DNA from: Rhizobium sp. Q54
GTDB taxonomy: Bacteria; Pseudomonadota; Alphaproteobacteria; SMXS01
NCBI GenBank assembly: GCA_945907245.1
Contig: CAMDTB010000010.1
Location: forward strand, 1 to 64,000
DNA: 64,000 nt
Reading direction: 5' to 3'
A program made the position numbers and the translations under genes. The notes beneath the pieces are model-generated. The model made no database searches, was not told the DNA's origin, and saw only the letters and a program-made list of their open reading frames with translations. This document shows, one piece after another, positions 38,215 to 42,547 of the stretch; the first letter of the stretch is position 1; each line of letters begins with the position of its first letter.

Positions 38215-38511
38215 TCAGCCCAGGAACGACGGCGCGAAATGCTCGACGGTGGGGAAGGGGTCGTAGAAGTCGTGGAGCAGCGTCCGCCACTGCTGGTAGC
38301 GTTCCGAGCTGCGAAAGCCGACGGTGTGGTCCTCCAGCGTCCGCCACCAGACCAGCAGCAGGTAACCGGCCGGGCGCTCGATGCTGCGGCGGACTTCGAT
38401 GCCGCCGAAGCCGGGGGACGCCTCGATCAGCGGCCGGGCCTGCCGCATGGCCGCCTCGAAGGCTGTCTCGCGGCCGGGCTTGATGGAAAGTTGCGCGGCT
38501 TCGAGGATCAT
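38215..38511 (-). CDS. Antibiotic biosynthesis monooxygenase (ABM)-domain protein
   Basis: MILEAAQLSIKPGRETAFEAAMRQARPLIEASPGFGGIEVRRSIE. Confidence 0.88.
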   Translation of the reverse strand: MILEAAQLSIKPGRETAFEAAMRQARPLIEASPGFGGIEVRRSIERPAGYLLLVWWRTLEDHTVGFRSSERYQQWRTLLHDFYDPFPTVEHFAPSFLG

Positions 38512-39593
38512 GGGCTCTCCTTCCACTGGACGAACGCGCCGTGCGGATGCGCCTGGCCGAGCAGCCGTTCCTCGCCGCCGGGCCAGAGCGTCAGGGTGAT
38601 GTCCGGCAGGACGGCGAGATGCGGCGCTTCCATGCGCAGCCAGGCGATGGGCGCATCAGGTGTCGCGCGTTCGCCGGCACGGGTCAAGGCGGCATGCAGG
38701 GCAGCCTTGGTTTCCGGGCTGAAATACTGCGCCGCGATGGAGTGGTAGACCACCGTCGCGACGCCGGGGCGCGGTTCGGCGAGCTGCCGCGAGACCCAGT
38801 CGCCGGCGTCGGCGGTTTCCAGCTTCGGCGGATAACGCCTCGCCACGGCGAGCGCGCCGTCCAGCGCGTGGAAGCGGTCGAGCTGGTCGGGCCAGACATA
38901 GGACTTGAGGCGCAGCGCCGCCTCGGGCCGCGACAGGTCGATGGGGCTGATGTCGCAGCCCGCGCGCTCGGCGACGGTCGCGGCGACGTCGGCGTCGGGC
39001 GCATGAGCGCGCCAGTCCGTGCCGATCAATACCGGGCTTGCCGGATCGCCCCAGGTTCTGCCGTCACCGAAATCGTAGCGAAAGCGGTCCCAGTTCAGGT
39101 TGAGCCCGGCGCTCGCGCCGATCTCGAGGCAGCGCAACGGCAGTCCGGTTTCCTTCGCGACGGTTAGGAAGCCGCCGATCAGTACGCCGGTGCGGCGCAC
39201 TTCGTTGGTCTGCGGCGTGTTGTGCAGGAAGCGTTCGAAGAACGGGGCCTCGGCGCGCAGCATCGCCTCGGCGGCGTCCCACAGGCCGTCCTCGCGGAAC
39301 GTGCCGCCGGCGCTGGCGTAGAAGTCGGCGAGGGCCGGGGCGCGGCCGGTGAGCACCAGGTAATGCAGGCCGCCCACAAGGCGCAGGCTCAGCACGGCGT
39401 CCCTCGGTGCGCGGGTTTCCCAGCCGGACAGCATGGCGCGGGTCACGCCGCCCGCCCTGTAGTCCGCGGCCATGCCGTGCAGCAGCAGGGCGGTGAGTGG
39501 CGAGCCCATCATCTCGCAGGCCTGGGCCTGGAAGTCGAGGGCGGCGGCGACGGAGCTGCCCGAGTGGTTGTCGGTCGCGATACTGTCGGACAT
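38508..39593 (-). CDS. DUF2332 family protein
   Basis: FQAQACEMMGSPLTALLLHGMAADY; NTPQTNEVRRTGVLIGGFL; LRCLEIGASAGLNLNWDRF; VVYHSIAAQYF. Confidence 0.88.
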   Translation of the reverse strand: MSDSIATDNHSGSSVAAALDFQAQACEMMGSPLTALLLHGMAADYRAGGVTRAMLSGWETRAPRDAVLSLRLVGGLHYLVLTGRAPALADFYASAGGTFREDGLWDAAEAMLRAEAPFFERFLHNTPQTNEVRRTGVLIGGFLTVAKETGLPLRCLEIGASAGLNLNWDRFRYDFGDGRTWGDPASPVLIGTDWRAHAPDADVAATVAERAGCDISPIDLSRPEAALRLKSYVWPDQLDRFHALDGALAVARRYPPKLETADAGDWVSRQLAEPRPGVATVVYHSIAAQYFSPETKAALHAALTRAGERATPDAPIAWLRMEAPHLAVLPDITLTLWPGGEERLLGQAHPHGAFVQWKESP

Positions 39594-39652
39594 TGCGATC
39601 TCCACTGAAACGGCGGTAATCATCATCTGGCCGCAGGGAGTTGCGTGCATCA

Positions 39653-39669
39653 ATATTGATCAATATAAT
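39653..39669 (+). promoter_or_regulatory. 14-bp perfect palindrome overlapping a TATAAT -10 box
   Basis: ATATTGATCAATAT (39653-39666); TATAAT (39664-39669); ATG at 39676. Confidence 0.7.
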
Positions 39670-39675
39670 CTATAT

Positions 39676-40827
39676 ATGTCCATGAAAATGATCCCCGCCG
39701 AGGATGTCTGCGCGCGCCTGCGCATCCGGCCGCAAACACTCTACGCCTATGTGAGCCGCGGACTGCTGGAGGCGTTGGCGGACGCGTCCGATTCCCGCCG
39801 CAGCCTGTACCGTGAAGCGGACGTCGAGGCGCTGGTCGCGCGCAAGAAAGCCGGACGCAGCCGCACCGTGGTCGCCGCGAAAGCGATCGATTGGGGGGAT
39901 CCGGTACTGGAGACCCGTATCTCGACGGTGGTGCGCGGCCGGCTGATCTACCGCGGGCATGACGCCGTTGCGTGGTCCGGAATGGCGACGCTCGAGGAAA
40001 CGGCGGCGTTGCTGTGCGACGTCAAGGCATGGCCCGATGCGCCGATGCTTTCGGTTGCTTCCGGGGACGCCGGGATCGCGGGCGCTTTCAGTTATCTGGC
40101 GCGGGCCGCCAACGAGGCGCCGCCCATGTTCGGGCGCAGCCGGCAGTCCATCGTTGCCGAGGGCGCCGCCCTGCTGCGTGGTCTCGCGACGGCCGTGCTG
40201 GGGCGCGAGGCGCATGGTCCCGTTCACGAATCCGCCGCCGAAGCCTGGCGGCTGAAACCGAAGGGCGCTGACCTAGTGCGCCGCGCGCTGGTGCTGCTGG
40301 CCGATCACGAGCTGAACGCCTCGACCTTCGCGGTGCGCGTGGTTGGATCGACGGGCGCGAGCCTGCCGGCTGCGCTCATGGCGGGCCTCGCGGCGCTGAC
40401 CGGGCCGAGGCATGGCGGCATGACCATGCGCACGGTCGTCATGTTCGCCGACGCGCTCGCAGCCCCCGATCCCGCCGCGTTCTTTGCCGCGCGCCTTGCG
40501 CGGGGGGAGCCGATCTGGGGACTGCATCACGAACTCTATCCTGACGGCGACATCCGTGCCCGGGCGCTACGGGCCGTGCACGAACCTTCCGGAGCATTGC
40601 TGCGGACGATCGACGCGGCCGAGGCGGCGGGCGGCATGCGGCTTAACGTCGACGGCGCGCTGGCGGCGCTGGCGCACACGCTGGGGCTGTCGCAGGAGGC
40701 GGCATTTGCGATTTTCGCGCTGGGCCGGGCGACGGGCTGGATCGCCCACGCGATCGAGCAGACCGAGACGGGGGCGCTGATCCGGCCGAGGGCACGCTAC
40801 GTGGGACCGGAAGCGGCCGGCGGCTGA
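39676..40827 (+). CDS. Citrate synthase-like protein with N-terminal MerR/excisionase-type HTH domain
   Basis: AEDVCARLRIRPQTLYAYVSRGLLEALADASDSRRSLYREADVEALVARKK then LTGPRHGGM, GLHHELYPDGDIRARAL, NVDGALAAL, FALGRATGWIAHAIEQ. Confidence 0.88.
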   Translation: MSMKMIPAEDVCARLRIRPQTLYAYVSRGLLEALADASDSRRSLYREADVEALVARKKAGRSRTVVAAKAIDWGDPVLETRISTVVRGRLIYRGHDAVAWSGMATLEETAALLCDVKAWPDAPMLSVASGDAGIAGAFSYLARAANEAPPMFGRSRQSIVAEGAALLRGLATAVLGREAHGPVHESAAEAWRLKPKGADLVRRALVLLADHELNASTFAVRVVGSTGASLPAALMAGLAALTGPRHGGMTMRTVVMFADALAAPDPAAFFAARLARGEPIWGLHHELYPDGDIRARALRAVHEPSGALLRTIDAAEAAGGMRLNVDGALAALAHTLGLSQEAAFAIFALGRATGWIAHAIEQTETGALIRPRARYVGPEAAGG

Positions 40828-40830
40828 GGA

Positions 40831-41241
40831 TCAGTCCTGATGCACCGGGCGGTGCAGCGTCTCCCAGGGCTCGCCCAGATCGTCCATGCCCGCCTCGACC
40901 AGTTCGGCCTCGAGGCGGATATCGGCGCCGCCGGCGAAGCTGAGGGTGATCAGGGCGCGGCCCTGCTGCTCGACGGCATGGATGGTCAGCAGTTCAAGCA
41001 CATGATCCTTCGACTGCTGCGGCACGCCGCGTACCTTGGCCACGCTGACGGTCTCGAAATGCAGTCCGGCCCGGGTTCGGTAATGCGGCGGGCCGGGCCG
41101 TTCCCACATGAAGCGGTTGCACACCAGCGCGAAGCGGTTGGCCGCGGGCAGCCAGGCCAGGTCGGACACCTTGAGCGCGGCGTCCTGCAGATAGCCGCCG
41201 ATCACGGCGATGTCCTCGGCATTCTCGGCGCGTAGCTTCAT
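40831..41241 (-). CDS. DUF2948 family protein
   Basis: [47 protein letters not shown]; adjacent to murA. Confidence 0.85.
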
Positions 41242-41254
41242 GGCGAAACCTTCT

Positions 41255-42547
41255 TCATGGAACGATCGCCCTGTCGTCCTGGGTGCGGCGGATGTCCGCG
41301 CCCACCGCGCGCAGCTTCTCTTCAAGTTTCTCGTAGCCACGGTCGAGGTGGTAGACGCCGTTGACCACGGTCTCGCCCTCGGCGGCCATGCCGGCCAGCA
41401 CCAGGCAGACCGAGGCGCGCAAATCGGTCGCCATCACCGGCGCGCCGCGCAGCCGCGGGTTGCCGCGCACCATGGCCGAGCTGCCGTGCACGGTGATGTC
41501 GGCGCCCATGCGCGCCAGCTCGGGCGCGTGCATGAAGCGGTTCTCGAAGATCGTCTCGGTGATCAGCGAGGCGCCGTCGGCCACCGCCATCAGCGCCATG
41601 AACTGAGCCTGCATGTCGGTGGGGAAGCCGGGGAAGGGATGGGTGATGACGTCGAATCCCTTGCAGCGTCCCGTCGGATGGGACACGCGCACCTTGCCCA
41701 GGCCGTTGGAGATGTTAACGCCGGCCTTGGCCAGCGATTCGAACACCGAGCCGAGATGATCCACATTGGCGCCGTCCAGCACCAGCTCGCCGCCGGTGAT
41801 CGCCGCAGCGACCGCGTAGGTGCCGGCCTCGATCCGGTCGGGCATCACGGTGTATTCGGCGGCGTGCAGCGCGTCGACGCCCTGGATCACCAGGCACTCG
41901 GTGCCGATGCCGTGGATGTTGGCGCCCATGGCAACGAGGCACTGGGCCAGGTCGGTGACCTCGGGTTCGCGCGCGGCGTTCTCCATGATGGTGGTCCCAT
42001 TGGCGAGGGCGGCGGCCATCAGCAGGTTCTCGGTGGCGCCCACCGACACGAACGGAAAGCGGATGGTGGCGCCCTTCAGGCCGCCGGGCGCATGGGCGAT
42101 GACGTTGCCGCCCTTCAGCTCGATCTTGGCGCCCATGGCCTCCAGGCCCTTCAGGTGCTGGTCGATGGGGCGGATGCCGATGGCGTCGCCGCCGGGCATG
42201 GAGACGGTCGCCTCGCCGGTGCGCGCCAGCAGCGGACCCAGCACCAGCACCGAGGCGCGAATGCGGTTGACGATCTCGTACGGCGCGACGGTCGACAGCG
42301 GCGGCTTCGCGGTCAGCTTGAGGGTGCGGCCCCGGTTGGAGCCTTCGACTTCCTCGACGGTGGCGCCCAGACTGGTGAGCAGGTCCGACATGGTGGCCAT
42401 GTCGTCGAGCGCCGGGATGTTGTGGAGCGTCAGGGTCTCTTCGGTCAGCAGGCTGGCGGCCATCAGCGGCAGCGCCGCGTTCTTGGCGCCGCTGATCGAG
42501 ATCTTGCCGCGCAGCGGCCTGCCGCCGCGGATGACGAGCTGATCCAT
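41255..42547 (-). CDS. murA: UDP-N-acetylglucosamine 1-carboxyvinyltransferase
   Basis: [79 protein letters not shown]. Confidence 0.97.

Follow-up and report, generated by a model that had tools for sequence, protein, structure and literature searches.

Whether a citrate synthase that carries a DNA-binding domain acts as an enzyme or as a regulator of transcription is the question raised by a gene located at 39676..40827 (+) in the window, the 64,000-nucleotide stretch of DNA that was analysed. The open reading frame runs from an ATG at 39676 to a stop at 40827 and encodes an HTH-citrate-synthase fusion protein (HTH-CS) of 383 amino acids. HTH-citrate-synthase fusions are an existing annotation. 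The earlier note on this DNA, which was made from the sequence alone, knew of no described regulatory function for them, and likewise none was found in the open-access literature (subscription papers were outside the search).

The answer favoured here, with good confidence, is that a citrate synthase has given rise to a local regulator of transcription. HTH-CS would repress its own gene, control the divergent one as well and sense its ligand through the citrate-synthase site. DNA binding, the sign of the regulation, the effector and the leaderless start are inferred; the domain architecture, the conservation and specificity of the operator, the divergent layout and the intact ligand-site residues can be read in the sequence. 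HTH-CS is very probably a widespread and little-noticed switch protein in which an enzyme fold serves as sensor, controlling itself and the adjacent gene.

Domain structure of HTH-CS

The N-terminal part of HTH-CS contains a MerR/HTH_17-like winged HTH domain (residues 5-58; 39688..39849, +) that includes the family signature QTLYAYVSRG. The window protein matches Pfam HTH_17 at 7.9e-6 (26.5 bits, just under the 27-bit cut-off) and does not reach the Pfam cut-off of MerR_1 (15.6 vs 21.6 bits). At E up to 0.01, HTH_17 is matched by 34 and MerR_1 by 21 of the 43 family members. The signature residues TLYA and SR are invariant across the 43 members, and the window protein has the LYAYVSR signature. 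In the AlphaFold model (mean pLDDT 91), residues 5-58 are arranged as strand-helix-helix-strand-strand-helix. Residues 62-76 (39859..39903, +) are disordered in the model (pLDDT <50) and form a low-confidence, probably flexible linker to the citrate-synthase-fold domain (39904..40824, +). This domain matches Pfam Citrate_synt (PF00285) at 3.2e-52, and its predicted fold is complete and mainly helical; the best structural match found by Foldseek is M. tuberculosis CitA (E 1e-14). The earlier note had read the protein as a MerR/excisionase-like HTH fused to a citrate-synthase-like domain and had named structure prediction as a check, and this architecture is borne out by Pfam and AlphaFold, with an HTH fold predicted.

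HTH-CS shares its fold and active-site residues with the type II citrate and 2-methylcitrate synthases (M. tuberculosis CitA, PrpC). It differs from them in that the N-terminal HTH replaces the usual start, in the change of the HRVYK motif of type II synthases to HxLYP, and in forming a separate clade on the tree (SH-aLRT 100). No NCBIfam citrate-synthase equivalog or subfamily cut-off is reached by HTH-CS (best TIGR01800, 139 vs 421 bits). The source genome encodes one other citrate synthase, which is full-length. A second, diverged HTH-CS paralogue was seen in the same genome in G106, G111 and G117 (Caulobacter genus) and in L180 (Pandoraea).

Active site of the citrate synthase domain

The candidate catalytic residues that had been recognised earlier are indeed present in the window protein (H246, H285 and D326), as are R294, R351, R370 and H211. 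In the residue table, the catalytic His/His/Asp and the oxaloacetate/citrate-site Arg residues are kept in 42-43 of the 43 HTH-CS members. The equivalents of the conserved residues in pig citrate synthase are presumably H238, H274, H320, R329, D375, R401 and R421. Position 289 is Pro in 42 of the 43 members, whereas type II synthases have Arg or Lys there; this residue after HRVY is what we take to be a CoA contact in the pig enzyme. The invariant citrate-site residues, together with the replacement of the HRVYK Arg/Lys by Pro, suggest, from the alignment only, selection on the oxaloacetate/citrate site and an altered handling of CoA.

A different change, from Arg to Glu after the second catalytic His (HRVY to HELY), had been singled out in the earlier note. 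At this position (286), 30 of 43 relatives have Pro and the others vary; the HELY change is therefore no special feature and was rejected as a functional signature, the family-wide change being the Pro at 289. In one degenerate HTH-CS (L017 in G071), several active-site residues are gone, and neither the operator nor a divergent partner is present.

Caulobacter CitB and CitC

HTH-CS was found in almost all Caulobacter genomes searched, and a second citrate synthase (CS2) adjoins it in most of them. In most closed Caulobacter genomes the pair is located near the chromosome end, with CS2 on the left (minus strand) and HTH-CS on the right (plus strand). This is the layout expected for CCNA_03757/03758 (CitB/CitC), which resemble the divergent CS2/HTH-CS pairs both in gene order and in identity to CitA. 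The published identities to Caulobacter CitA are 30% for CitB and 32% for CitC (PMC7083601); in G149, the identities to the genome's CitA are 30.5% for CS2 and 32.5% for HTH-CS. The best solved relative of a CS2 is B. subtilis CitA, as expected from the 37% identity reported for CitB (PMC7083601). The Caulobacter homologue of HTH-CS is thus almost certainly CitC, an inference from gene order and identities in which the NA1000 sequence was not compared.

CitB complemented E. coli gltA, and CitC did not (PMC7083601). In its main text, that paper regards CitC as a putative citrate synthase and says nothing of an HTH, the operator or a regulatory role. The failure of CitC where CitB succeeds is counted in favour of a regulator, although it could reflect poor expression. 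A regulatory function would also be a likely reason why CitC looked enzymatically dead.

Conserved operator upstream of HTH-CS

Phylogenetic footprinting identified a conserved predicted operator, TCAATATTGATCAATATAATCTAT, at 39650..39673 (+). It is composed of the half-sites TCAAT (39650-39654), TTGAT (39656-39660) and ATC(T)A (39668-39672), the last of which (ATCTA) deviates once from the consensus found upstream of HTH-CS homologues, TCAAT[C/A]TTGAT-N7-ATCAA[T/C]. The predicted operator ends 2 nt before the ATG of HTH-CS, and on its other side 56 bp separate it from the start of the divergent DUF2332 gene.

A total of 92 HTH-CS loci from alpha-, beta- and gammaproteobacteria were collected by protein similarity (12 from a genome search and 80 from public genomes). 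When up to 13 kb were scanned on both strands, the best hit of the operator profile lay upstream of HTH-CS in 87 of 92 loci. All these hits had the orientation of the HTH-CS gene and were no more than about 130 bp away from the start of the matched protein. Since the profile had been trained on the sites of the same loci, a fixed 15-position consensus was applied in addition; at least 13 positions were matched in 86 of 92 upstream windows (66 exact) vs 0 of 4031 control windows. In an unbiased scan of 386 alphaproteobacterial genomes, the exact pattern occurred at 29 sites and the reversed pattern at none, and 26 of the 29 sites directly precede an HTH-CS gene. The source genome contains a single zero-mismatch site, at 39650, and no one-mismatch copy; the next-best sites have at least 2 mismatches. 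Two Caulobacter genomes likewise have one zero-mismatch site each, and so do most of eight further genomes.

The element proposed as operator in the earlier note was a 14-bp palindrome, ATATTGATCAATAT. Its sequence and its position (39653..39666) are exact, but only 7 of 92 loci contain it unchanged; it was rejected as the operator and is a lineage-specific part of the longer, shifted element with three half-sites. Footprinting upstream of orthologues, which the same note had suggested, did reveal a conserved element, though not this 14-mer. The proposal of an autoregulator with an operator of its own gains strong support from this footprint, which stands in fixed orientation and position before HTH-CS in three proteobacterial classes, usually as one site per genome, and accounts for most of the exact sites in the scan.

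Three exact sites of the 386-genome scan have no HTH-CS nearby (L185, L191 and L202). Five HTH-CS loci have no operator (L017, L046, L066, L082 and L106), and all five are also without a recognised divergent partner; L106 does have a CoA-transferase III gene upstream, but in tandem with HTH-CS and not divergent. In L118 (Nitrospirillum), two adjacent operator copies are present in one intergenic region, possibly as separate sites for two divergent promoters.

Promoter and translation start

A -10-like TATAAT (39664..39669, +) is located inside the operator, at profile positions 14-19 and 6 nt before the ATG. It is preceded by 17 nt and a weak -35-like TTGCGT (39641..39646, +; 3/6), of which TTG is kept at the same spacing in relatives of the genus. 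A strict sigma-70 scan reported no promoter. There is no Shine-Dalgarno sequence before the ATG at 39676, whereas the divergent DUF2332 gene has GGAG; the overlap of the TATAAT with the palindrome, the ATG and the missing Shine-Dalgarno sequence are all as they had been described.

All six inspected members of the genus share this arrangement, with the TATAAT contained in the operator and the ATG 2 nt past the operator end. Across the family the start codon is at most 4 nt from the operator in 39 of 87 loci and 6-43 nt away in the others, sometimes with a possible Shine-Dalgarno sequence. Because of these distances, leaderless initiation of the HTH-CS mRNA, which the earlier note had claimed, is judged likely in the window and not universal in the family, where other loci have short leaders; the inference has no 5'-end data behind it. 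Such a position of the predicted operator, over the -10 box and right next to the ATG, is consistent with autorepression and with an mRNA that has no leader or almost none.

Divergent partner genes

The divergent gene in the window (38508..39593, -) encodes a DUF2332 protein of 361 amino acids (Pfam DUF2332 7e-107) and is a probable second target of the operator. Its ATG is at 39593, the position at which the earlier entry began; that position does hold a start codon, that of the DUF2332 gene, but HTH-CS itself starts at 39676. A gene with an antibiotic biosynthesis monooxygenase (ABM) domain (38215..38511, -; Pfam ABM 1.6e-12) overlaps the end of the DUF2332 gene and is probably co-transcribed with it.

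The divergent partners in the 92 loci include CS2 (52), CoA-transferase III (19), PrpB (4), DUF2332 (4), cupin (3) and methyltransferase (2), and the remaining 8 loci have another partner or none. Several of these partners, namely CS2, CoA-transferase III and prpB(-prpC-acnD), are genes of tricarboxylate or acyl-CoA metabolism. In the genus of the window the partner is DUF2332 or cupin; DUF2332 is also divergent from HTH-CS in Roseomonas (L119). HTH-CS and prpB flank the operator in the Luteimonas loci, and prpB-prpC-acnD is found in Luteimonas and relatives. NCBIfam equivalog matches are the basis of these functions; the match for PrpB was scored on L111, those for the neighbouring PrpC and AcnD on L089. 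The methyltransferase partner in Arenicella resembles trans-aconitate methyltransferase (E 4e-10). A Cupriavidus locus with no partner listed (L052) has an SDR gene in the divergent stretch.

HTH-CS forms one clade on the tree. Within it the divergent partner has been exchanged on at least 14 occasions, yet the operator is retained, and it therefore tracks HTH-CS and not the partner. That one site could control both genes had been suggested before, and the conserved divergent layout supports it, with no expression data.

Two exact operators with no HTH-CS nearby were found in Paraburkholderia bryophila (G156; L175 and L181). One fronts a cupin gene, with a beta-lactamase-family gene on its other side, and the other lies between a 2-hydroxyacid dehydrogenase gene and an SDR gene. 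The cupin is 40% identical to the cupin partner in the genus of the window. These extra sites look like candidate trans targets.

Proposed mechanism

As an obligate dimer typical of citrate synthases, or as a higher oligomer, HTH-CS would present at least two winged-HTH domains to TCAATnTTGAT-N7-ATCAA. The predicted operator in the window extends over the spacer and the -10 box as far as the gene's own ATG, and binding would most likely repress the promoter of HTH-CS and also control the divergent gene. The citrate-synthase domain would act as the sensor: on binding oxaloacetate or a tricarboxylate (citrate or 2-methylcitrate), perhaps together with an acyl-CoA, it would close, and DNA binding would change. 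The resulting mRNA would be leaderless or nearly so. The functions of the partners are diverse, and therefore no single effector is obvious.

Several points stand against a regulator. There are no binding, expression or 5'-end data, and invariant catalytic residues would also be expected of an active enzyme. The HTH_17 score under the cut-off, the ATCTA deviation, the weak -35 and the negative promoter scan count on the same side.

The balance also tips, with less assurance, towards a broader claim. HTH-CS proteins would make up a transcription-factor family that spans the proteobacteria and has so far gone undescribed. With an intact citrate-synthase active site they would gauge the levels of citrate, 2-methylcitrate or oxaloacetate/acyl-CoA, and their targets would be a second citrate synthase (Caulobacter citB), CoA-transferases or the methylcitrate operon, the regulator-operator cassette having been re-used with new neighbours many times. 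If true, hundreds of genes now annotated as additional citrate synthases would gain a function and a DNA target that can be tested, and HTH-CS would be a candidate regulator of the methylcitrate (propionate) operon in Luteimonas and relatives.

Alternative explanations

HTH-CS may instead be a MerR-style activator that distorts the promoter spacer and switches on the divergent gene. This is possible but doubtful: many members have a MerR_1/HTH_17-like domain, and the operator lies within the -35/-10 spacer of the gene's own promoter, but the spacer between TTGCGT and TATAAT, an unproven promoter, is 17 bp. MerR promoters have a spacer of 19-20 bp. The extension of the site past the -10 box to the ATG is moreover a repressing position for HTH-CS itself, which leaves activation of the divergent gene possible. 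Another explanation, regarded as unlikely, is that HTH-CS has kept its citrate or 2-methylcitrate synthase activity and binds DNA when its substrate is scarce, as a trigger enzyme like PutA. Its citrate-synthase fold is complete, and the catalytic and oxaloacetate-site residues are more strictly conserved in the 43 members than a pure sensor needs. Such an enzyme would nevertheless have Pro at the presumed CoA-contact position of the pig enzyme in 42 of 43 members, and its activity is already supplied by the adjoining full-length CS2. The Caulobacter complementation results, in which CitB replaces E. coli gltA and CitC fails, also speak against it (PMC7083601).

The operator, too, has been considered in other ways. 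It is very improbable that it belongs to another regulator and that the HTH of HTH-CS serves something else: direct binding data are lacking and the two Paraburkholderia sites lie away from HTH-CS, but the location of 26 of 29 exact sites directly before HTH-CS, the fixed orientation and distance, and the persistence of the site as the partner gene changes all oppose this. Promoter or start-region signals common in AT-rich intergenic DNA might also produce such repeats, as the site overlaps a -10 box and the GC content of 39640-39679 is 27.5%. This can practically be dismissed, with 13 of 15 positions reached by only 4 of 17400 shuffles of the same AT-rich 65 bp and by no control window, and with usually one exact copy per genome. 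The reading of HTH-CS as an autorepressor with a citrate-synthase sensor is retained.

Relation to known regulators

HTH-CS would belong with the enzyme-derived regulators such as BzdR; what is new is the citrate synthase as the sensor fold, ligand-dependent binding being inferred. BzdR contains a shikimate-kinase-like domain that binds the effector benzoyl-CoA and has been described as an enzyme turned regulator (PMC3602430). BzdR/BoxR and HTH-CS both consist of an N-terminal DNA-binding domain and a linker to an effector domain descended from an enzyme. BzdR differs in its HTH class and enzyme fold, and it is no longer enzymatically active; in HTH-CS all citrate-site residues are retained. 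MocR/GabR regulators carry a winged HTH and a complete aminotransferase fold that senses substrate-like ligands, and they are often divergent from the target gene. They are like HTH-CS in joining a winged HTH to a whole metabolic-enzyme fold and unlike it in combining a GntR-type HTH with a PLP enzyme instead of a MerR-like HTH with a citrate synthase. The best, though weak, sequence relatives of the HTH are the MerR family and BldC-like small DNA-binding proteins (6ama/6amk, E about 0.05), from which HTH-CS differs in its citrate-synthase effector domain, its 17-bp spacer and its operator with three half-sites. If the proposed function is true, citrate synthase joins the few enzyme folds known as transcriptional sensors. 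Most ligand-site residues are still intact, and the step from enzyme to sensor would therefore be open to direct study.

Neighbouring genes in the window

For the DUF2332 protein, no PDB relative was found and the literature search returned no paper. The protein contains the motif EIGASAGLNL, which is reminiscent of the SAM-methyltransferase motif I. Its structural model is poor (pLDDT 62, three sequences), and the best Foldseek hits include many SAM methyltransferases; on this weak, model-based evidence, the protein may be a methyltransferase. On the 3' side of HTH-CS, DUF2948 and MurA-like genes are located in convergent orientation (40831-42547, -), and the same neighbours are present in several members of the genus.
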